A stretch of DNA of 64,000 nucleotides, taken from assembly GCA_027452025.1 (NCBI GenBank), contig DAIDHI010000035.1, positions 1 through 64,000 of the forward strand, written 5' to 3'. Shown piece after piece: positions 26,680 to 37,511 of the stretch (positions are counted from its first letter, which is position 1; every line of letters starts with the position of its first letter). Made by a program: the position numbers and the translations under genes. The notes beneath the pieces were generated by a model, which was not told the DNA's origin, ran no database searches, and worked only from the letters and a program-made list of their open reading frames with translations. Source of the stretch: Elusimicrobiota bacterium (GTDB taxonomy: Bacteria > Elusimicrobiota > Elusimicrobia > UBA1565 > UBA9628).

Positions 26680-28071
26680 ATGAGGCTGCTCTTCTTGAAT
26701 CCTCCGGGGCCTCGTTACCTTTATAGAGGCTCGGTCTGCACCTACATCTCGAAGGCACGGTATGTATGGAAGCCCAAAGACTTCATCCTCTTGTCGAGCG
26801 TGGTGCCGCCCGAGTGGCCCATCGATTTCCTCGACGCTTCCATTGATTCTCTGGGGCGCGCCGAGACGCTGCGGCGGGCTCAGGAGCTGCGGCCGGAAGC
26901 CATCATCGTCGCCATGTCCTCGATCGTCTGGGAGGACGACCTCTCCTTCCTCGGAGACTTGCGCCGCGTCCTCGCGCGGACCCGGCTCTTGGCGTTCGGC
27001 GACGCCTTCCTCAGCCCGGCTTTTCGCGCTCAGGCGCGGCCTTGGCTCGACGGGATCGTCGACGACCCCCTTCGATTCCCGGTCACGAAGCTGTTGGGCG
27101 GGGACGGCCTCGATCAGCGGCGGCTCGAGCCGAAGAGCCCCGGCAAGAAGCAGGCCGCGGAGCTTTCGACCCACGCGTCCCGGCAGTCGCTGTTCGACAA
27201 CCGGCGCTATCGCTGGCCCTTCGTCAGGAGGTTTCGCTTCGCCAGCGTCTATACCCAGTTCGGCTGCCCCTTTTCCTGCTCCTACTGCACGGAGTCGAAG
27301 ACCGACGTCACTTTCAGGCCCGCCGACAACGTGCTCGAGGAACTGCGGCGGCTCAAGGACGCCGGCTACCGGGAGTTGGTCTTTGGCGACGCTTCCTTCG
27401 GCTTTCCGACGCAAAACGCGCGAAGGATCTTGGAAGGCATGATCGGCGAGCGCATGGACTTCGGCTGGAGCGCCTACACGTACCCCGGCTTGCTCGACGA
27501 CGCCGCCCTGGACCGCGTCGCCGCATCCGGCGGCCACACCTTGGTCATCGGAGTCGATTCCGCCGACGAGGCGCTCCTGGCCCGCTACGGCCGCCGGCTG
27601 CCTCAAGCCAAGATCCGCGAATTCGCCGCGGCCTGCCGGCGCCGCGGCGTAGAAGTCTGCGGCGACTTCATCCTGGGCTTCAAGGAGGAGACCCTTGCGT
27701 CCTGCCTGCGCAGCATTGAGCTCGCCGTGGAGCTCGATTTGGACTATGCCTCCTTCAACATCGCCACGCCTCTGCTCGGCTCCTCCATCCGCGACGACTA
27801 TGAGGCCCGGGGCCTCATCGGCGCGGCCGCCGCGGGGTTCGACACGGCCGGCTTGAGCAGGATCCACGGCACGGAAGCGTTGCCCGCTCCCGACCTTCTT
27901 TGGCTGCGCAACCATGCCGTGCGCCGGTTCTACCTGCGGCCCGGCTACTGGCTCAAGCGCCTGCGCCGCCTCAACGGCCTCGAGGACCTGCGATTGAAGA
28001 CCGACGAGGGCTTCGGCATCCTTCTGAACCTGCTCAAGGCCGAGCGCACCCTTCGGGACGGCTATCTATGA
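26680..28071 (+). CDS. B12-binding-type radical SAM protein
   Basis: A 463-residue protein. The N-terminal 150 residues start L-L-F-L-N-P-P-G and resemble the cobalamin-binding domain of class B radical SAM enzymes, although the D-x-H-x-x-G cobalamin motif is not evident. The [4Fe-4S] cluster cysteines are Cys196, Cys200 and Cys203 in G-C-P-F-S-C-S-Y-C. The radical SAM barrel runs to about residue 380, with G-F-K-E-E-T before a helical tail. Relatives methylate or rearrange unactivated carbons. It is the first gene of the acyl activation/reduction operon, and its stop overlaps the acyl carrier protein start as ATGA, which ties it to that pathway. The substrate is unknown. Confidence 0.87.
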   Translation: MRLLFLNPPGPRYLYRGSVCTYISKARYVWKPKDFILLSSVVPPEWPIDFLDASIDSLGRAETLRRAQELRPEAIIVAMSSIVWEDDLSFLGDLRRVLARTRLLAFGDAFLSPAFRAQARPWLDGIVDDPLRFPVTKLLGGDGLDQRRLEPKSPGKKQAAELSTHASRQSLFDNRRYRWPFVRRFRFASVYTQFGCPFSCSYCTESKTDVTFRPADNVLEELRRLKDAGYRELVFGDASFGFPTQNARRILEGMIGERMDFGWSAYTYPGLLDDAALDRVAASGGHTLVIGVDSADEALLARYGRRLPQAKIREFAAACRRRGVEVCGDFILGFKEETLASCLRSIELAVELDLDYASFNIATPLLGSSIRDDYEARGLIGAAAAGFDTAGLSRIHGTEALPAPDLLWLRNHAVRRFYLRPGYWLKRLRRLNGLEDLRLKTDEGFGILLNLLKAERTLRDGYL

Positions 28072-28304
28072 ACCGCCTGGAACGCGCCTTCGCCGAGGCC
28101 TTGGGTCTGCCCGCCAAGACCGATTTCGCCGCGCTCGAATACAGCCGCAACGACTATTGGGACTCCGTCGCCCATATGCGCCTCGTCGCCGAGATCGAAA
28201 AGACCTTCGGCGTCCGGTTCGACTACGAGGAGGTGCTGGCGCTGAGCAGCTATTCGAAAGCGGCCGAGATGCTCAAAAAGCGCGGCCTGAGCGTCGATGA
28301 TTGA
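28068..28304 (+). CDS. Acyl carrier protein
   Basis: A 78-residue acidic protein with the size and helical pattern of an acyl or aminoacyl carrier protein. The phosphopantetheine site is Ser33 in W-D-S-V-A-H-M, corresponding to the D-S-L of common ACPs, followed by E-I-E-K-T-F-G-V-R-F. It is not the housekeeping ACP in context: it overlaps the radical SAM gene by 4 bases and the acyl-AMP ligase by 8 bases, so it is likely dedicated to this operon. A phosphopantetheinyl transferase is not in the window. The loaded acyl or aminoacyl group is unknown. Confidence 0.9.
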   Translation: MNRLERAFAEALGLPAKTDFAALEYSRNDYWDSVAHMRLVAEIEKTFGVRFDYEEVLALSSYSKAAEMLKKRGLSVDD

Positions 28305-29667
28305 CGCGGGCCGAGGCGCGGACCTCGCTCTCATCGACGCCGACGCGAGCCAGCGTTGGACCTACGACGAGCTGCGATCGGCCGCGCGGGAAGTCGCCGG
28401 CGCCTTGGCTCTGCCCGCCAAAGGCCTGGTCTTCGTCTTCGCCCGCAACGACCTTTCCTCCGTCGCCGCTTATCTGGGAGCCGTCGAGGCCGGGCACGCG
28501 GCGGCGCTGCTCGACGCCGGCGCGCAAGCGCCGCTCAAAAGCGCCCTCGTCGAGGCCTACAGGCCCGACTTCGTCGTCGAGCCCGGAATCGGCGGCCGGC
28601 CGGCCGTTCGTCGGCGGGACGCGCCCGCCCGGCGCGTCCACCCCGATCTCGAAATCCTGCTCGCCACTTCGGGAACGACGGGCAGCCCCAAATTGGCGCG
28701 CCTTTCGCGCCGCAACGTCGAGTCCAACGCGAGGGCGATCGGACAATATCTCGGCTTGGACGCCTCGGAGCGCGCCTGCGCCAGCCTGCCGCTGCACTAT
28801 TCCTTCGGGATGTCCGTGCTCAACAGCCATCTGGCCGCGGGCGCCTGCGTCGTCTTGACCGGCGAGGCGATGACGCGGCCGGCTTTCTGGGAGAAGCTCT
28901 CCGCCCATCGCTGCACGTCCTTGGCCGGCGTGCCCTATTCCTTCGAGATCATGCGGCGCGTGGGCTACGAGAAGCTCCTGCCGCCGTCGGTGCGCACCTT
29001 GCTCCAGGCGGGCGGGAAAATGAGCGAGGCGCTCGTGCTCGAGTTCGACCGCTTCATGAAGGCGCGCGACGGGCGGCTGTTCGTGATGTACGGCCAGACC
29101 GAAGCGTCCCCGCGCATCGCGTACGTGCCGCCCGAGCGCCTCCCGCAAAAGGCCGGCAGCGCCGGCGTGGCGATCCCGGGCGGCTCGCTGTCCGTCGAGG
29201 ACGGGGAGGTGGTCTATCGCGGCCCCAACGTCATGCTCGGCTACGCCGAGTCCTCGGCCGATCTCCTCCGGGGCGACGAGCTGGGCGGGGTCCTGCGCAC
29301 CGGCGACCTCGGCCGCCTCGATGCCGACGGCTTCCTCTATATCACCGGGCGGCGCAAGCGCTTCTCCAAGGTCTACGGCCTGCGCCTCGCCCTCGACGAC
29401 GTGGAGGTCCGCCTGCGCGAGCGCGGCCCGGCCGCCGTCGTCGGCGGCGACGACCGCATCACCGGCTTTTGCGAATTCGGCGACGAGCCGTCGCTCAAGG
29501 CGCTGGCCCGGGAGCTCGCCGCGCTCTATGGCGTCAACGCCGCGGCCTTCGACTTGCGACGGGTGGACGCCTTGCCGCTCAAATCCAACGGAAAGATCGA
29601 CTACGACCGCCTGCCAAAGACCCATGGACCTGGACGAGATCCTTCGCCTGCCCCCCTACAGCCTTAG
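28297..29667 (+). CDS. Acyl-AMP ligase / adenylation enzyme (ANL superfamily)
   Basis: A 456-residue AMP-binding enzyme. The phosphate loop is L-L-A-T-S-G-T-T-G-S-P-K near residues 124-135, A5 is M-Y-G-Q-T-E-A near residue 265, and A7/A8 read R-T-G-D-L-G-R-L-D then G-R-R-K-R-F-S-K. The A10 lysine is in K-S-N-G-K-I near residue 430. It lacks any fused carrier domain, so it should adenylate a carboxylic acid and load it onto the small ACP encoded next to it. At about 450 residues it is compact compared with fatty-acyl ligases of 550-600. It overlaps the LuxE-like gene by 44 bases. Confidence 0.9.
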   Translation: MIDAGRGADLALIDADASQRWTYDELRSAAREVAGALALPAKGLVFVFARNDLSSVAAYLGAVEAGHAAALLDAGAQAPLKSALVEAYRPDFVVEPGIGGRPAVRRRDAPARRVHPDLEILLATSGTTGSPKLARLSRRNVESNARAIGQYLGLDASERACASLPLHYSFGMSVLNSHLAAGACVVLTGEAMTRPAFWEKLSAHRCTSLAGVPYSFEIMRRVGYEKLLPPSVRTLLQAGGKMSEALVLEFDRFMKARDGRLFVMYGQTEASPRIAYVPPERLPQKAGSAGVAIPGGSLSVEDGEVVYRGPNVMLGYAESSADLLRGDELGGVLRTGDLGRLDADGFLYITGRRKRFSKVYGLRLALDDVEVRLRERGPAAVVGGDDRITGFCEFGDEPSLKALARELAALYGVNAAAFDLRRVDALPLKSNGKIDYDRLPKTHGPGRDPSPAPLQP

Positions 29668-30694
29668 CGCGGCCGACAAGCGCCGCATCCTGGGCGCGGG
29701 CTTGGCCGACTTGACGCGGAGCCATCGCCGGCGCTGCCCGCAATACGCCCGCCTGCTCGACATCTTTTATCCGGGGCTCGAGGATTTCAGGCTGCCGCAA
29801 GAGGCGCCCTATCTGCCCGTAGGCCTCTTCAAGGCGCGCGAGCTCAAGAGCATTCCCGACTCCCAGGTCTACAAGATTCTGACGTCGAGCGGTACGTCGG
29901 GCTCGGGGCTGAGCCGCATCGTCTTGGACCGGGAGACCGCCCGCCGCCAAGCCCAGGCCCTGGGCGCTATCGTCGCTCAGGCCGTCGGCCCCGCCCGCTT
30001 GCCCATGCTGGTCCTGGACTCGGCCGATTTTCTCAAGGACCGCAAGAACTTCAACGCGCGCGCCGCGGCGATCCTCGGCTTTTCCACCTTCGGCCTGGAC
30101 CATCTCTACGCCTTCGACTCCTCGCTGTCGGCGGACTTGCCCGCCATCGAGGCTTGGCTGCGCGCCCACGACGGGCCGATTCTGGTCTTCGGCATGACCT
30201 TCCTCGTCTGGCGCCTGCTGGAGCAGACGGCCGGCCGGCTCGATTTGTCGCGCGCCGTGCTCATCCACGGCGGCGGCTGGAAAAGGCTGCAGGAGCGAGC
30301 CGTCACGCGCCTGGAGTTCAGGAAAGCCCTGGCCGACGGCTGGGGCGCGCGCCGGGTTTACGACTATTACGGGATGGTCGAGCAGGTCGGCGGGGTCTTC
30401 CTCGAATGCGAGCACGGCTGGCTCCACGCTCCCAACTTTTCCGATATTCTGGTGCGCGACCCCCTGACCTGGAAGCCGGCCCGGGCGGGAGAGACCGGCG
30501 TCATCGAGGCGATGAGCCTGCTGCCCGAAAGCTACCCGGGACACTGCGTCCTGACCGAGGACTTGGGCGCCCTCGGCGGCGAGGACGGCTGCTCCTGCGG
30601 CCGCCGCGGGACCTATTTCTCGGTCTCCGGGCGCGTGCCGCAGGCGCAGCTGCGCGGCTGCAGCGACGTCTACGCCGAGGGAGCCGCCGCGTGA
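29624..30694 (+). CDS. LuxE-like acyl-protein synthetase
   Basis: A 356-residue LuxE-family (PF04443) enzyme. In bioluminescent bacteria LuxE forms acyl-AMP, moves the acyl group to its own C-terminal Cys and then to LuxC. The AMP loop is I-L-T-S-S-G-T-S-G-S-G-L near residues 86-97, and D-Y-Y-G-M-V-E-Q near residue 250 matches the adenylating A5 motif. The C-terminus has R-G-C-S-D with Cys346 ten residues from the end, the same position as the acylated Cys of LuxE. A C-S-C-G pair lies nearby. The ATG at 29624 is chosen from the match to the family N-terminus. It is coupled to the LuxC gene by GTGA. Confidence 0.88.
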   Translation: MDLDEILRLPPYSLSAADKRRILGAGLADLTRSHRRRCPQYARLLDIFYPGLEDFRLPQEAPYLPVGLFKARELKSIPDSQVYKILTSSGTSGSGLSRIVLDRETARRQAQALGAIVAQAVGPARLPMLVLDSADFLKDRKNFNARAAAILGFSTFGLDHLYAFDSSLSADLPAIEAWLRAHDGPILVFGMTFLVWRLLEQTAGRLDLSRAVLIHGGGWKRLQERAVTRLEFRKALADGWGARRVYDYYGMVEQVGGVFLECEHGWLHAPNFSDILVRDPLTWKPARAGETGVIEAMSLLPESYPGHCVLTEDLGALGGEDGCSCGRRGTYFSVSGRVPQAQLRGCSDVYAEGAAA

Positions 30695-31935
30695 AGATCC
30701 GCCTGCGCGTCCCGGTCGAGCGCGAGGTCGAGCCCTCCGAGGCGCTCTCGCTAGCCGCCGGCGGCGGCGCCCAGCCGTTCTCCGGCCGGCTCATCGATTT
30801 CTGCGCGGCCCTCTCGGAGGCGCTGCTCGCCGACGCCGAGGCGCGCCGGTATCCCGAGCTCCAGGCCTTGGGCTTCTGGCTGCGGCGCTCTCAGCTCCTC
30901 TCTCTCAAGGAGAGCTTTTCCGGCCTCGCCGAGCAGGGACTCATCGCCGTGCCGAGAGGCTTGGTCTTCCACGTGCCGCCCTCCAACGTCGACGCCCTGT
31001 TCGTCTATTCGTGGGCGTTCTCGTTCCTCGCGGGCAACGCCTCCGTCGTCCGGCTTTCCCCGCGGCCGTCGCGGCCGACCGATATCCTGTGCCGGCTGCT
31101 GGGCGCCCAGTTCCGCCGCGACCCATTCCAAGCGCTTTCCCGCGGCGCCCTGGTCGTCTCCTACGGCCACGAGGACGAGCCGACCGCCGTTTTTTCAGCG
31201 GCCTGCGATCTTCGCGTCCTCTGGGGCGGCGACGAGGCCGTGGCGCGGCTGAGGGCCTTCCCGCTCAAGCCGCGCGCGCGCGACCTGACGTTCCCGGACC
31301 GCTGGTCCTTCTGCCTGCTCGACGCCGGGCGAGTGCTGGCCCTCGACGACGCCGCGCTCGCGAGCCTGGCCGGGGACTTCTTCAACGACGCGTTCTGGTA
31401 CGATCAGCGCGCCTGCGCCTCGCCGCGTCTGGTCGTCTGGCGCGGCGCGCCCCCGGAGCGCGACCGGGCCTCGGCGCGGTTCTTTTCCCGGCTCCGCGAG
31501 ACCATCACCGAGAAGGGCGCCCGCTTCGAGACGGGCGCCGTGCTGGGGAAGCTGGCTTTCGCTTACGAATCGGCCTTGGCCGCGCCCGTCGTCGCGCAGA
31601 AGAACTTCGGAAACGAGCTGACTCTGCTGCGCGTCCGCGGGTTGGAGGGCCTTCCGCGCGAGCACTGCGGCGCGGGCCTGCTCTTCGAGGCCGGCGTCGA
31701 GAGCCTCGAGGAAGCCGCCGGCTTCGTGAGCGAGAAAGACCAGACGATGACCCACTTCGGCCTCTCGGCCGAAGAGCTGCGCGCCTTCGCCGGAAGCCTC
31801 AACGGGCGGGGCCTGGACCGCCTCGTGCCCGTCGGACGCGCGCTCGCGTTCGACCGGTATTGGGACGGCTGCGATCTGGCGCGCGAAATGATGCGTCTAG
31901 TGCGCGTCGAGGGGGGGCGTGAAGAGGGCCGCTAA
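30691..31935 (+). CDS. LuxC-like acyl-CoA (acyl-protein) reductase
   Basis: A 414-residue member of the LuxC acyl-CoA reductase family (PF05893), related to aldehyde dehydrogenases. It reduces an activated acyl group to an aldehyde with NADPH. The acyl-accepting residue is probably Cys242 in Y-D-Q-R-A-C-A-S-P-R. V-P-P-S-N-V-D-A and A-F-S-F-L-A-G-N-A-S near residues 91-115 fit the nucleotide-binding part. It starts with GTG overlapping the LuxE stop. No luxA, luxB or luxD is present, so the aldehyde is for biosynthesis, not light. The next gene, a polysaccharide deacetylase, overlaps by 17 bases. Confidence 0.9.
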   Translation: MKIRLRVPVEREVEPSEALSLAAGGGAQPFSGRLIDFCAALSEALLADAEARRYPELQALGFWLRRSQLLSLKESFSGLAEQGLIAVPRGLVFHVPPSNVDALFVYSWAFSFLAGNASVVRLSPRPSRPTDILCRLLGAQFRRDPFQALSRGALVVSYGHEDEPTAVFSAACDLRVLWGGDEAVARLRAFPLKPRARDLTFPDRWSFCLLDAGRVLALDDAALASLAGDFFNDAFWYDQRACASPRLVVWRGAPPERDRASARFFSRLRETITEKGARFETGAVLGKLAFAYESALAAPVVAQKNFGNELTLLRVRGLEGLPREHCGAGLLFEAGVESLEEAAGFVSEKDQTMTHFGLSAEELRAFAGSLNGRGLDRLVPVGRALAFDRYWDGCDLAREMMRLVRVEGGREEGR

Positions 31936-32896
31936 GAGCCTCTTCTACGGCGGACTGCGCGCCTGCGGGGCGACGTCGCTGTTTTCGTTGGCCAATCGGG
32001 GCCGGGTGCCGATCCTTTTCTATCATGGGGTGACCGACCGCCGGCCTCGCGGCGTGATCAACCGGGAGGACAATCACATCCCCTCCGAGGACTTCGAGGC
32101 TCATCTGCGCTTTCTGAAGGCCGAGCGCCGCGTCATCCCCTTGGCTCAATACGTGCGCTGCCTCGCGGAGGGCCGCCCCGCGCCCGAGCGCGCCGCCGTC
32201 ATCACCTTCGACGACGGCTTCGAGAACAACTACACGACGGCTTTTCCGCTGCTCAAGAAGTACGGCCTGCCCGCCACGATCTACGTGACCACGGATTTCG
32301 TGGAGCGGGGGATCCCTCTGTGGGTCGACCGCCTGGCTTGCGCCTTCGAGTCGTCCCCGGTCGTGCCGCAAGCCGAGAGGCTGCCCCGGTTTCTCGAGGT
32401 CAAACGCCGGCTCAAGGCCATGCCGCAATCGGAACGGCTCGACGCCCTGGAAAAGACGATCGGCGAGGTCTGCGACGGACGGGAGCCCGCGCTCGACCCC
32501 GTCTACGCGCCGCTCAAGAAGGAGCATATCCGCGAAATGGCCGCCTCGGGCCTCGTCGAGATCGGCTCCCATTCGCTCACCCACCCGATCCTGACCTCGC
32601 TGAGCCCGGAGGAAAAGCGCCGCGAGATCGAGCAGTCCAAGGCGGCCGCCGAACGGCTGTCCGGAGGCTCGGTCGAGAGCTTCGCCTACCCCAACGGCGA
32701 CTACGACGCCGAGTGCCTGGCCCTCGTCGGGCGGGCGGGCTACGCCAGCGCCGCCGCCGCCGGCATGAAGCTGAGCGATTTGCGGGACTCGCGCTTCGCG
32801 CTCTCGAGGCTGGCCTTGGGCCCCGGCGAGGGCGTCGCCGTCGCGGCGGCGACGGTCAGCGGCCTGCGCCGGTGGATCGTCGCCCTGAGATCATGA
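31919..32896 (+). CDS. Polysaccharide deacetylase (CE4, NodB-type)
   Basis: A 325-residue NodB-homology protein. It has I-L-F-Y-H-G-V at the start of the domain (near residue 32), the catalytic and metal Asp pair in T-F-D-D-G-F near residue 98, and the metal histidines in H-S-L-T-H-P near residue 218. F-A-Y-P-N-G-D is the later conserved block. An insert near residues 145-195 is longer than in small chitin deacetylases. There is no clear signal peptide, so it may act in the cytoplasm on a sugar intermediate, giving a free amine that could be acylated or joined to an aldehyde. GTG start, 17-base overlap with LuxC. Confidence 0.87.
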   Translation: MKRAAKSLFYGGLRACGATSLFSLANRGRVPILFYHGVTDRRPRGVINREDNHIPSEDFEAHLRFLKAERRVIPLAQYVRCLAEGRPAPERAAVITFDDGFENNYTTAFPLLKKYGLPATIYVTTDFVERGIPLWVDRLACAFESSPVVPQAERLPRFLEVKRRLKAMPQSERLDALEKTIGEVCDGREPALDPVYAPLKKEHIREMAASGLVEIGSHSLTHPILTSLSPEEKRREIEQSKAAAERLSGGSVESFAYPNGDYDAECLALVGRAGYASAAAAGMKLSDLRDSRFALSRLALGPGEGVAVAAATVSGLRRWIVALRS

Positions 32897-33966
32897 CGGC
32901 AACGCTTGCCGAGGTCGTCGCCGGCGACTACGAGGCCCTGGCGGCCTTCATGGCGACGGCTTGGAGCTCGCCTCGAGCCTTTTGGGAGAGCCGCTTCCGC
33001 GTCTGGTGGGACGACAATCCCGCGTTCGCGGGCTTCGCGCTGCCGCGCGGCTGGTCGCTCAAAGACCGCGGGAGCATCGTCGGCTTCCTGGGGAACGTCC
33101 CCTCTCTGTTTTGGGCGAACGAACGGACTCTCGCCGCCGTCAATACGAGCAGCTGGATCGTGGAGCCGGCTCACCGCTCGGGCCTCGGCAGCCTCGCGCT
33201 TCTGTCTCGCCAACTGGAGGCGGCCAAGGATGCCGTGCTGTTCAACGCCACCCCCACCGACGCCGTGCTGCCGATCTTCCTCAGGATGGGCTGCCGGCCC
33301 CTGCCGTGGGGCGGCCAGCGCGAGAGCTTCATCGTCATCGACGCCGCCGCCTGCGCCCGGGCGAAGGTGCCTCTCCTGGCGCGCGTGCCCGGAGCCGCGC
33401 AGGCGGCCGGGCTGGCGTTGTTCGCGCGCCAAGCCTCGCGGCTGTCCTTGCTGTCGCCTCTGGCCGTCCGGCGTCTCGAGGAAGCGGGACCCCGGTTCGA
33501 CGAGCTTTGGGAACGGACGCGGGGAGCTTACGCGGCGACCAACGTGCGCTCGGCCGCCGCCATCGGCTGGCACTGCTTTCGGGACCCGGAGTTTCCGAAG
33601 GTCCTGCTCGGCTGCTTCGACGGCAAGCGGCTCTGCGGCTACATGATCCTGCGGCCGAAGAGCCGGCGCGGGCTCTCCGTGCTCGAGTGCTGCGACCTCT
33701 GGACGGACCCCCCGCTGTCGCGCGACGCGACGGCCGCTCTCGTCTTCGCCGCCCGGCAGGCCGCCGACGAGGGCAATCACGACCTTCTCATGCTGCCTCA
33801 TTTCACCGGCGCCCTGGCCGGCCTCTACGCCGAGCTGGGCCTCATCCAGGGGCAAGCCCCGCCGCGCAAGTACCTCTACAAGGCGCCCGCGGCCCTTTCC
33901 GAGGCGATCGAAAGCGGGCGGGGCTATTTCTGCGCTCTGCAGGGCGACGCCGGCAGCGCGCCGTAG
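32893..33966 (+). CDS. GNAT-like protein (possible N-acyltransferase)
   Basis: A 357-residue soluble protein. Both halves have the look of a GNAT fold: I-V-G-F-L-G-N-V-P near residue 55 and C-G-Y-M-I-L-R-P near residue 252, with W-I-V-E-P-A-H-R-S-G-L-G-S-L-A near residue 86 resembling the acyl-CoA loop. The first half is better conserved than the second. This is the layout of double-GNAT and FemX-like enzymes. With the deacetylase immediately before it (ATGA overlap) it could acylate a freed sugar amine, but this is inference. It is the last gene of the operon, and its final 43 bases overlap the convergent membrane transferase gene. Confidence 0.65.
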   Translation: MTATLAEVVAGDYEALAAFMATAWSSPRAFWESRFRVWWDDNPAFAGFALPRGWSLKDRGSIVGFLGNVPSLFWANERTLAAVNTSSWIVEPAHRSGLGSLALLSRQLEAAKDAVLFNATPTDAVLPIFLRMGCRPLPWGGQRESFIVIDAAACARAKVPLLARVPGAAQAAGLALFARQASRLSLLSPLAVRRLEEAGPRFDELWERTRGAYAATNVRSAAAIGWHCFRDPEFPKVLLGCFDGKRLCGYMILRPKSRRGLSVLECCDLWTDPPLSRDATAALVFAARQAADEGNHDLLMLPHFTGALAGLYAELGLIQGQAPPRKYLYKAPAALSEAIESGRGYFCALQGDAGSAP

Positions 33967-35273
33967 CCGCCGGCGCACAGGCCCCGGCCCGCGAGCAAGA
34001 ATACCGCGGGCATCAGCGGCAGGCGAAAGCGGTAATAGGCCATCGCCCCGGCGCTCACGGCGATGAAATAGGCGATGGGCGAGACCGCGGCGGCCGCCGA
34101 GGCGCGCTGCCCGCAGCGCCACGCGCTCCACGCGCCGCGCGCGGCCAGCGCATACACGGCCGCCAGGAAGAGGAGATAAAGGACCAGCGGCACGGCGAGC
34201 CCGGGATGGTCGGAAAGGAGAGCGCGCGTCCCCGAGAAGTGACCGGAGGCCGGCAGCGGATGCATGGGATCGTAGCGCGGGTCCTTGAGCACTCCCCAGG
34301 CCGCGATCTCCAGGCCGTGGCCTCCCAGCATCTTGACCGTGTCGACCGCCATCTCCTCACCGTAGGCGAGCGGATGCGACAGAATGAAGCGCTCCGCCCA
34401 GCGGCCCGAGTAGGCGGCCTGCTCTTCGACCGACGAGAACGGCTGGGGATGATCGCGGCGAAGCTGCTCCTGGACCGAGGCGAGAGCTTGATCGAAGCCT
34501 TGGCCGGTCAACCTCATCTCCACGGCCGCCGCGCGCATGCCGAAGATGTTGAGCCCTTGGATCGACGAGAACGTCGCCGTGCCGAGCGCGGCTTTATTGC
34601 GCGCCATCCAGGCCGCCGGGCCGATCAGCGCGGCCAGCACGAAAGCCGCCGTCGGCTTCCAAAGCGCGCGGCGGCCCCGCGCGACGAGCATGGCCGCCGC
34701 GCCGAAGACGAAGAAATAAAGCCCGGCGGGGCGCACGAGAGGGCAAAGCCCGAAAAGGAGGCCGGCCGCCGCCCAAGGACCCGGACGATCGTCATCCGCG
34801 GCGAAAGCGCGGGCAAAAAGCAGAAACGCCGCGCAGAAGCAGAAGACGAAGACCGTCTCCGTCCCCAAAAGGCCGGTGTTGAGCACGGTCACGGGATCGA
34901 CGGCAAGACCGAGGGCCGCGAGCAGCGCCGCCGCCTCGCTTCCCCAAAGCGCCACGCCGGCGGCGTAGACGAGCGCGACGGAGGCGGCGCCCAGAGCCGC
35001 CTGAACCCAGAGCGCCCTCCAAGCGCTCGGCCCGGTGGCGGCCAAGAGCAGCGGGTAGCCCGGCGTGCGCACCGTGTCCGGGACCAGCGGAGGGGCCTCG
35101 CTGAGCGAGAACGTCCCGTGCTCGGCCAGGTTGCGCGCGGCCTGAAGGTAGCCGACGGCGTCCGGCACCATGGCGTAGCGCGGGTCCGGGCCCATGCGGA
35201 TAACCAGGGCGGCGCGCAGGGCGAACGCCAGGGCGACCGCGGCCAGCGCCTTGGGCGAGCTAAAGAGTCTCAT
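33924..35273 (-). CDS. GT-C type membrane glycosyltransferase (GT39-like)
   Basis: A 449-residue polytopic protein with about eleven hydrophobic segments. After helix 1 it has M-V-P-D-A-V-G-Y-L-Q and then T-P-G-Y-P, which fit the first loop of GT39/ArnT-like enzymes. A soluble stretch near residues 230-330 would face the periplasm. It probably transfers a polyprenol-phosphate-linked sugar. The ATG at 35273 overlaps the upstream radical SAM gene by 14 bases. The 3' end overlaps the GNAT-like gene tail to tail. It is the last of a three-gene minus-strand unit with the SPASM radical SAM protein and GT9. Confidence 0.81.
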   Translation of the reverse strand: MRLFSSPKALAAVALAFALRAALVIRMGPDPRYAMVPDAVGYLQAARNLAEHGTFSLSEAPPLVPDTVRTPGYPLLLAATGPSAWRALWVQAALGAASVALVYAAGVALWGSEAAALLAALGLAVDPVTVLNTGLLGTETVFVFCFCAAFLLFARAFAADDDRPGPWAAAGLLFGLCPLVRPAGLYFFVFGAAAMLVARGRRALWKPTAAFVLAALIGPAAWMARNKAALGTATFSSIQGLNIFGMRAAAVEMRLTGQGFDQALASVQEQLRRDHPQPFSSVEEQAAYSGRWAERFILSHPLAYGEEMAVDTVKMLGGHGLEIAAWGVLKDPRYDPMHPLPASGHFSGTRALLSDHPGLAVPLVLYLLFLAAVYALAARGAWSAWRCGQRASAAAAVSPIAYFIAVSAGAMAYYRFRLPLMPAVFLLAGRGLCAGGYGALPASPCRAQK

Positions 35274-36264
35274 AACGCGTGCAAGTCTTGCAGATTTCGG
35301 GGAAATCCCCGCGGGCGTGGCGCTCGAGGAGCCCTCGCAGCGCGGGGCCCGCAAGAATCTCGCCCAGCGGCTTTTCCTTGACGTCTCCGATGATCAAGGT
35401 GGCCTCGACGTCGCGGCAGCAGCAGGCGTTGACGCGCCCGTCGGCCAGGATCATGGGCCCGGTGAGGAGCCGGCGGCACGGACCGCGATGGATGGGCGGG
35501 GGCTTGGGCACCAGGCCTGCGCCGCGCAGCCGCTCGTCGCCGATCTTGCCGCCCCAGTTGTCGAAGTCGGCGACGCCGTCGACCCGGATCACGCCCTCGG
35601 CCGCGCGGCGCCGCAGATACTCCCAAAATTCGCCCTTTTCGCTGCCCAGAGGCACGCGCAGGTTCACCTGCACCCGGATGCGCGAGCCGGCGCGGACCTT
35701 CTCATCGATGAGATTCCTGATGTTGGCCACGGCGGCCTCGAACTTGTCCACGCCCATGATCTCGTGATACGTCCGGCGGTCGAAGCCTCCGAAGGAGCAG
35801 AAGATGGCCAGCCGGTCGTCGTGGCCGACGAGCCGAGACACGATGTCCGGCTTCATCAGGATCGCGTTCGTGTAGAAGTGGTAGCGCTTGACCTCGGGGC
35901 GCGAGCGCAGATAATCCATGCGCTCGAAGAGGAGCTTGTCGACGAAGGGGTCGCCGACGATCGGCGTCAAGTCCACGTCCCCGGGACCGAGAGCGAGGTA
36001 TTGGTCGACGGCGCGCCGGAAGAGCTCGAGAGGCATCGACGCCTTGGGCCGCTCCATCTGCGGGTAGGCGCAGAAGACGCAGGCCGCGTTGCAGATGTTG
36101 GTGCCTTCGATGTAGAGCGCGTGCGGCCGGGCACGGACCCAAGGCAGCAGCCGCATCAGCCGGTAATTGAGCCGCAGTCCGGCGCGTTCCCGCGCGCCGG
36201 ACAAGCGCGCGCGAACGGGCTCGGGAACCATGGCGCGATAGGCCCGCCGCAGAAGCTCCGTCAT
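35260..36264 (-). CDS. Radical SAM protein with SPASM-type C-terminus
   Basis: A 334-residue radical SAM enzyme. The cluster cysteines are Cys58, Cys62 and Cys65 in C-N-A-A-C-V-F-C. The C-terminal region has C-R-R-L, then V-N-A-C-C-C-R-D, and C-K-T-C near the end, the spacing of a SPASM auxiliary-cluster domain. SPASM proteins modify peptides, sugars (for example aminosugar dehydratases) or cofactors. With glycosyltransferases on both sides a sugar or lipid substrate is the more likely reading. The ATG overlaps the GT9 stop by 4 bases. It has no B12 domain, unlike the protein at 26680-28071. Confidence 0.86.
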   Translation of the reverse strand: MTELLRRAYRAMVPEPVRARLSGARERAGLRLNYRLMRLLPWVRARPHALYIEGTNICNAACVFCAYPQMERPKASMPLELFRRAVDQYLALGPGDVDLTPIVGDPFVDKLLFERMDYLRSRPEVKRYHFYTNAILMKPDIVSRLVGHDDRLAIFCSFGGFDRRTYHEIMGVDKFEAAVANIRNLIDEKVRAGSRIRVQVNLRVPLGSEKGEFWEYLRRRAAEGVIRVDGVADFDNWGGKIGDERLRGAGLVPKPPPIHRGPCRRLLTGPMILADGRVNACCCRDVEATLIIGDVKEKPLGEILAGPALRGLLERHARGDFPEICKTCTRYETL

Positions 36265-37511
36265 CGGGCCTCCAGCCACGCCAGAACCTTGGCCGCGACT
36301 TCCTCGGCCGCCAACTCGCCGAGACAGGCGCGGTGGCCGCAATTGTCGAAGTGGAGCACGTCAAAGCCTTCGTTTCTCACGCCGAGGCCGACGCAAGGCG
36401 AGCAGGGAAGGCTCTTCGACACGTCGAGATGCCGCTCTGCGTCCCAGATGCGGCCGAGTTCGCGCGGATCGGTCGGCCCCCAGACCGTCGCCGTCGGCAC
36501 GCCCAGCGCCATGGCCGCCTTGGCCAAGCCCGTGTCGCTGGCGAGGAAGGCCTCGCAGCGGCGCAGGGCGGCGAACGTCTCCAGAATCCCGGCCCTCCCG
36601 GTCAAATCGATCAACGGCTCGCCGCAGGCGGCGGCGAAGGCTCGCGCGGCGTCCGTCTCCTCGGGGCCGCCCAAGAGGACCAGCGACGCGCCGGTCTTTG
36701 CGACGACGGCGCGCGCCACGGCCGCCCACCGCTGGGCGGGCCAGATCTTGGCGTATTGGCTGCGCGGCGACCCGAGATGCAGGCCCAGGAAGCGCTTGCC
36801 TCGCGGCAGATGGCGCTCGGCGAAGTCCCGCGCCGCCGCAGGCTCGGGAAGCTCCGGCCTCGCCTCGTCCTCTTGCCGCAGGCTCAGCCCCAGCGCCTGC
36901 GCCAGGCGCAGGTTGCGGCGCACGGCGTGCTCCGCACCCGGCGCCGTCCACACTTTCCGATTGAAGGCCAGCCTGCGCTCGAATTCCTCGCAGACCACGC
37001 CCCGCCGCAAGCGCCAAGCCGCGTAGCGCAGAGGCCCCCATCCGGCGTGCGGCGCGCGAATCGGGCGGCAGTGGCCCGCGCGCGTCGGGACGCTCAAGAC
37101 GGCGCCGGCGAAGGCGCGCATGGGCGTTGCGCCGGTGGCGGCGACGGCGTCGAAGCCCTCGGCGCCGACGCGCCGCTCTATCTCCCGCCGCGTCCCGCGC
37201 GCGGCCAATTCCTCGTGCTCGTAAAGCCAGAGATCGTCGACCAGCCCGGAGGCGGGCAGAATCTCCGAGGTCCCCGCGTAGCGATCGGCCACGAACACGA
37301 TTTTGGCCCCGGGAAAGCCGCGGCGCAAGGCCCGCAGCGTCGGCAGGAAAAAGATCAGGTCCCCGATGGCGGCGTAGCCTAAGACCAGGACCTTCCCAGG
37401 CGCGGCCGCCCGCGCGCCCGGGCCGGGCGCGCGCATGGATCGGACCGCCAGGCCCGCGTAATGCGAGGCAAGCCCGGCCGCCAGGCCCCATCTCGACCTT
37501 GCAGAGCCCAT
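36261..37511 (-). CDS. Family 9 glycosyltransferase, heptosyltransferase-like
   Basis: A 416-residue GT9 protein. The N-terminal Rossmann half starts V-L-V-L-G-Y-A-A-I-G-D-L near residue 42, and the C-terminal half has H-L-G-S near residue 250, L-L-G-G-P-E-E, S-D-T-G-L-A-K-A-A-M-A-L-G-V-P-T, and the Cys-rich end L-P-C-S-P-C-V-G common in LPS heptosyltransferases. GT9 enzymes add heptose from ADP- or GDP-heptose; the heptose pathway in this window gives a donor. It starts with ATG 6 bases from a TATACT element shared with the divergent gene, and is the first gene of the unit with the SPASM protein and GT-C enzyme. Confidence 0.87.
   Translation of the reverse strand: MGSARSRWGLAAGLASHYAGLAVRSMRAPGPGARAAAPGKVLVLGYAAIGDLIFFLPTLRALRRGFPGAKIVFVADRYAGTSEILPASGLVDDLWLYEHEELAARGTRREIERRVGAEGFDAVAATGATPMRAFAGAVLSVPTRAGHCRPIRAPHAGWGPLRYAAWRLRRGVVCEEFERRLAFNRKVWTAPGAEHAVRRNLRLAQALGLSLRQEDEARPELPEPAAARDFAERHLPRGKRFLGLHLGSPRSQYAKIWPAQRWAAVARAVVAKTGASLVLLGGPEETDAARAFAAACGEPLIDLTGRAGILETFAALRRCEAFLASDTGLAKAAMALGVPTATVWGPTDPRELGRIWDAERHLDVSKSLPCSPCVGLGVRNEGFDVLHFDNCGHRACLGELAAEEVAAKVLAWLEAR

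Follow-up and report, generated by a model that had tools for sequence, protein, structure and literature searches.

A Lux-like acyl-activating cassette beside a deacetylase pair and a radical SAM protein in a glycan locus of an Elusimicrobiota bacterium

What do a LuxE-family acyl-protein synthetase and a LuxC-family acyl reductase do among the glycan genes of an Elusimicrobiota bacterium, in an operon that encodes neither luciferase nor LuxD? The question is raised by the stretch of 64,000 nucleotides analysed here, called the window (contig DAIDHI010000035.1 of assembly GCA_027452025.1), in which seven open reading frames follow one another on the + strand at 26680-33966, each overlapping the next by 4 to 44 bases. 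Annotations generally treat Lux-type reductases as enzymes of bioluminescence or of fatty aldehydes. An initial annotation, made from the sequence alone, had described an unfamiliar seven-gene set in which an acid is loaded on an acyl carrier protein (ACP), altered by a radical SAM enzyme and reduced to an aldehyde. Its description of the locus was borne out as regards the seven overlapping genes, the family motifs, the missing luciferase and LuxD and the position among glycan genes. The union of ACP, AMP-forming acyl ligase, LuxE and LuxC, which it had implied to be without precedent, is nevertheless a widespread cassette, ACP-(SDR)-AMP ligase-LuxE-LuxC, where SDR stands for a short-chain dehydrogenase/reductase. 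This core has already been described, both in flagellin-glycosylation islands and, in analogous form, in the rfb region of Vibrio cholerae O1, and is not new; what looks new here is only the particular combination of the cassette with a deacetylase pair and a radical SAM enzyme.

The two Lux-like proteins are separate from the true bioluminescence enzymes. The LuxE-family protein (29624..30694, + strand, 356 aa; Pfam LuxE, 1.4e-43) holds its cysteine, Cys346, in an RGCSD motif, and the LuxC-family protein (30691..31935, + strand, 414 aa with a GTG start) matches Pfam LuxC at 7.8e-22 over residues 86-250 only. Both cysteines singled out in the initial annotation are invariant in the alignments, Cys242 of LuxC being retained by every one of the 46 LuxC proteins aligned, true lux LuxC included, and Cys346 of LuxE in 9/9 proteins of the first alignment. 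Against the NCBIfam equivalogs for bioluminescence, LuxE reached 55.6 bits where the cut-off is 550, and LuxC 21.7 bits where it is 750. In quick trees of 46 sequences, with true lux references taken from three genomes scoring above the LuxE equivalog cut-off, both window proteins grouped with proteins of the cassette and the true lux proteins formed separate groups at support 100. The LuxC tree placed the window in a 33-row cassette group at support 100 and within an 8-row group at 97, together with members from Acidobacteria, Chloroflexi, Pseudonocardia, Deinococcus and Nonomuraea; the placement in the LuxE tree was less firm. A true lux operon was therefore rejected, since the scores lie far below the equivalog cut-offs and the trees separate, and the window LuxE and LuxC do not group with bioluminescence enzymes, a point in favour of the earlier proposal. 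A Lux-like clade, clearly separate from true lux, occurs in the glycan loci of many phyla, and no tested function was found for it. Two further arrangements were seen among the loci collected: in eight of them (L037, L038, L039, L040, L042, L047, L048 and L052) LuxE adjoins a protein of about 880-1000 aa, with a LuxC region lying towards the N-terminus and a long C-terminal extension, which forms a group of its own, and four others (L076, L099, L115 and L204) hold two copies of LuxE or of LuxE-LuxC within one cluster.

The extent of the cassette was determined by scanning bacterial and archaeal genomes with the LuxE alignment, which gave at least 572 confirmed relatives, the loci counted being the best 80 of these. 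Although some contigs among the 80 are too short to show all genes, the AMP ligase was present in 77 and LuxC likewise in 77, the ACP in 70 and an SDR homologue in 58. Hosts include Acidobacteriota, Bacillota, Bacteroidota, Pseudomonadota, Chloroflexota, Spirochaetota, Actinomycetota and others, to which plasmid records add Deinococcus, Ponticoccus, Rhizobium and Nonomuraea. The window has this layout, with ACP, AMP ligase, LuxE and LuxC adjacent, in order and on the same strand; it has no dedicated FabG-like SDR in the operon, a gene common in the loci but not universal and so not treated as defining. The gene-neighbourhood search proposed with the initial annotation showed that the four-gene union recurs. 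The exact seven-gene order, by contrast with this core, was found in none of the 80 loci. The open-access literature searched yielded no account of the cassette in company with a radical SAM protein, and among 56 genomes of the same order a related LuxC occurs in only one other.

The surroundings of the cassette are mostly amino-sugar and glycan genes. When same-strand families outside the cassette were counted over 88 loci, each cluster being annotated from one representative, the most frequent neighbours were a transaminase of the dTDP-4-amino-4,6-dideoxygalactose (dTDP-Fuc4N) type in 41, a split transketolase, its halves occurring in 30 and 29 (for example L108:12921-13751, L144:7309-8376 and L055:2336-4160), FabZ in 23, NeuB in 21, an acyltransferase of the NeuD/PglD type in 18 and a dTDP-glucose dehydratase in 17; 14 loci have a thiamine pyrophosphate (TPP) enzyme and 10 a thioesterase. 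One locus, from Chloroflexi, has the order sugar transaminase, hexapeptide transferase, ACP, SDR, AMP ligase, LuxE, LuxC and ACP synthase, and this bracketing of the cassette suits a dedicated ACP. A 4'-phosphopantetheinyl transferase gene lies directly after LuxC in a Chloroflexi cassette (L083:7120-7542), which also suggests a dedicated ACP. A different form is found in L197, where an ACP, an AMP ligase, an iron-type alcohol dehydrogenase and an 825-aa LuxE-LuxC fusion occur together, with a NodB-type polysaccharide deacetylase and NeuB nearby. We take this layout to be that of V. cholerae rfbKLMN, RfbM presumably being the alcohol dehydrogenase of the tetronate set. In the LuxC tree the fusion stands on the opposite side from the window LuxC.

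Two genes of the cassette precede LuxE. The ACP (28068..28304, + strand, 78 aa; Pfam PP-binding, 2.4e-5) has its serine in a DSV motif at 32-34 and is the weakest of the six PP-binding matches of the genome, the best being at C33:35622, adjoining a FabG-like gene. Because that best match lies elsewhere, beside the FabG-like gene, the window protein was rejected as the housekeeping ACP, an identity that would have counted against the initial annotation, and is better described as a dedicated, divergent carrier. A second PP-binding gene accompanied by SDR genes was seen on the same contig as the window (L224, G000:C35:112000-131000). The AMP-forming acyl ligase (28297..29667, + strand, 456 aa; Pfam AMP-binding, 8e-41) shows the motifs TSGTTGSPK, YGQTE, TGD and NGK; among NCBIfam models it scores highest against TIGR03098, the exosortase-A-associated ligase (128 bits, cut-off 592), and it probably loads an acid on the ACP in a role like that of RfbL. 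As for a reductase, the genome has 13 SDR matches, the best of which (40%) is the FabG-like one at C33 beside the best ACP match, and it has no iron-type alcohol dehydrogenase at E 0.001.

Downstream of LuxC, the NodB/PgaB-type polysaccharide deacetylase (31919..32896, + strand, 325 aa with a GTG start; Polysacc_deac_1, 3.5e-28) carries the TFDDG and HSLTH motifs and is paired with the product of the seventh frame (32893..33966, + strand, 357 aa), a candidate GNAT-type N-acyltransferase. The pair is kept as a unit, without the cassette, in genomes G085, G165 and G089, as well as in G113 across unknown bases; a fusion of the two proteins in G113 was rejected, since the 697-aa frame is interrupted, where the two proteins meet, by a stretch of unknown residues that is probably an assembly gap. 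The copy of the pair in G089 has as its neighbour an alginate-export-type outer membrane protein (PF13372; L202:11337-12839). Among the 80 LuxE loci the window deacetylase found one single-sequence match, L136, and with a profile L070 and L056 also matched weakly; a deacetylase lies close to the cassette in L070 and in L197 too. The frame of the seventh protein, called GNAT-like in the initial annotation, is real, but the family reading is weak, as Pfam gave no match to it even at E 10 and one homologue touches GNAT models at E 0.0012 and 0.0028, below their cut-offs. A single-sequence structure model (pLDDT 38) was unusable for assigning its fold, and a 324-aa protein of L070 was not supported as its homologue.

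The first gene of the operon encodes the radical SAM protein (26680..28071, + strand, 463 aa; Pfam Radical_SAM, 2.5e-17), with CPFSCSYC at 196 and neither a B12-binding Pfam domain nor a DxHxxG motif. Its nearest named relatives are HpnJ (83.7 bits, cut-off 577.6) and AprD4 (64.6 bits, cut-off 500), with TIGR04072 at 68.2 bits (cut-off 360); HpnJ and AprD4 are enzymes acting on sugar-bearing substrates. Relatives at about 30% identity occur in 17 of the 198 other genomes of the phylum searched. In the 80 LuxE loci a single-sequence search found none; with a profile, which is more sensitive, L143 gave one relative and L078 another that was marginal. These distributions make it look as if the radical SAM protein and the NodB pair had each been added to the cassette separately.

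Convergent with the operon is a PMT_2-type glycosyltransferase gene (33924..35354, - strand), which overlaps it by 43 bases and gives it a glycan context, and beyond it lies a GT9 heptosyltransferase-like gene (36261..37511, - strand). Glycosyltransferases of these two kinds, GT9 and PMT_2, also flank several of the radical SAM relatives whose loci were examined elsewhere in the phylum, and O-antigen-ligase-like, flippase-like and further glycosyltransferase genes are found near the window operon. Close to the operon, on the opposite strand (window 35260-36342), is a further radical SAM gene, whose product has a SPASM domain.

Taking these parts together, the operon may make an unusual short acyl group and attach it to an amino sugar within a surface glycan, a reading for which the balance is about even and whose reactions, order, substrate and acceptor we infer. 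LuxE would activate a carboxylate as acyl-AMP and LuxC would reduce the acyl group to an aldehyde, which a reductase would convert to an alcohol, yielding a hydroxy acid such as a dihydroxybutyrate; in related loci this step would fall to a dedicated SDR or to an iron-type alcohol dehydrogenase, and here perhaps to a general SDR encoded elsewhere in the genome. The AMP ligase would then load the hydroxy acid on the dedicated ACP, the NodB-type deacetylase would bare a glycan amine, and to this amine the last protein, as a possible N-acyltransferase, would move the acyl group held by the ACP. The substrate modified by the radical SAM protein would be either the sugar or the acid, and this step is a weak point of the model. 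The acyl-donor model is favoured because the cassette is conserved, because its neighbours are amino-sugar and glycan genes, because of the analogue in V. cholerae O1 and because the deacetylase and the last protein are kept together as a unit. Several observations weigh against it, beginning with an operon that lacks a dedicated SDR or alcohol dehydrogenase in a genome lacking the iron type. The split transketolase, in about a third of the related loci, and the thioesterase, in ten, would suit an aldehyde which is built up further. Moreover, relatives of the NodB pair occur with no ACP or LuxE genes nearby, so the pair need not use the acyl group of the cassette, and the acyltransferase role of the last protein is only a candidate one, given that the GNAT matches are those of one homologue and lie below cut-off, and given the low-scoring model. 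Finally, since the window LuxC belongs to a clade apart from the RfbN-type fusion, its substrate need not be a dicarboxylate.

The transketolase and thioesterase genes bring back the earlier view, in which the acid is altered on the ACP, released and reduced by LuxE and LuxC, and the aldehyde itself becomes part of an unusual sugar or of a branched chain, for instance as a transketolase acceptor. The counts for the split transketolase, FabZ, the TPP enzyme and the thioesterase speak for it, as does the lux precedent, in which the acyl chain has left the ACP before LuxE and LuxC act on it. Nevertheless, the window operon has no transketolase, FabZ or thioesterase, the AMP ligase would be left without a clear purpose if the acid were released again, and in the best-studied analogue, that of V. 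cholerae O1, an amino sugar receives its acyl group from the activated acid, so that the order initially proposed, from ACP loading through radical SAM change to an end-product aldehyde, is less likely; we consider this view rather improbable. That the same enzymes might simply form a fatty-acid reductase, making a fatty aldehyde or alcohol for lipids, would agree with the Pfam membership and the conserved catalytic cysteines, but the equivalog scores, the fully supported separation of true lux, the missing LuxD and luciferase and the sugar genes beside the relatives make it very unlikely.

A different doubt concerns the unity of the operon, for its acyl cassette, NodB pair and radical SAM protein could be three independent modules that serve one glycan region without forming a single pathway. 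Four related genomes have the pair but not the cassette, the radical SAM relatives occur without both, the seven-gene order has no counterpart in the loci collected and a related LuxC is rare in the order. The overlaps running through all seven genes, on the other hand, suggest one transcript and joint selection, and a deacetylase near the cassette is not peculiar to the window, so that independence is regarded as rather improbable. At the opposite extreme, the radical SAM enzyme and the cassette might act on one molecule, by remodelling the ACP-bound acid through radical chemistry or deoxygenating the amino sugar, and the NodB pair would then swap an acetyl for the new acyl group, leading to a surface glycan substituent not seen before; this is an unlikely outcome.

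Should the acyl-donor model hold, and the cassette make short hydroxyacyl groups for amino sugars, hundreds of loci would be open to re-annotation. A possible product is hinted at in Aeromonas AH-3, whose flagellin glycan ends in a 102 Da group of undefined nature, in strains that carry the cassette (PMC7874193). By our own arithmetic, which is not a published finding, a dihydroxybutyryl residue (C4H6O3) has a mass of 102.03 Da, against 102.05 for what remains when the published masses are subtracted. The match is suggestive only, a coincidence worth noting, as other compositions share this mass; if the cassette does make short hydroxyacyl groups, the nature of the terminal group becomes testable.

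Compared with known systems, the window shares with the bacterial lux reductase (LuxC, LuxD, LuxE) the LuxE and LuxC families and their catalytic cysteines, but its proteins belong to separate clades, LuxD is missing, a dedicated ACP and an AMP ligase are present and the neighbourhood is another one. In V. cholerae O1 the analogous set of the rfb region is tied to the tetronate on perosamine (PMC4772473, PMC12208996), whose amine carries it, and an in-frame wbeL deletion abolishes the O1 antigen (PMC3441752); RfbL activates 2,4-dihydroxybutanoate, putatively onto CoA or RfbK (PMC12208996). The window resembles this set in its ACP, AMP ligase, LuxE-type and reductase functions, which in V. cholerae supply an acyl group for an amino sugar, and differs from the RfbKLMN type, for which L197 serves as stand-in, in its separate LuxE and LuxC genes, where RfbN-type proteins are fused, in a LuxC of another clade, in a genome without the iron-type alcohol dehydrogenase and in its radical SAM protein, which the V. 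cholerae set lacks. The flagellin glycosylation islands of Enterobacteriaceae hold Acp, LuxE, LuxC, CaiC and FabG, and thus the same kinds of ACP, CoA/AMP ligase, LuxE and LuxC, and differ from the window in having FabG, no radical SAM protein being reported alongside in the passages covered (PMC4875605). The group II flagellin glycosylation islands of Aeromonas (orf1-orf3-luxE-luxC), compared by description, encode an ACP, a 3-oxoacyl-ACP reductase, an AMP-dependent synthetase, LuxE and LuxC (PMC7874193). There the reductase and pseudaminic-acid genes are additional, and the cassette is described without a radical SAM protein or NodB pair, but ACP, AMP-dependent synthetase, LuxE and LuxC stand in the same order as in the window and, as in the window, within a glycan locus.

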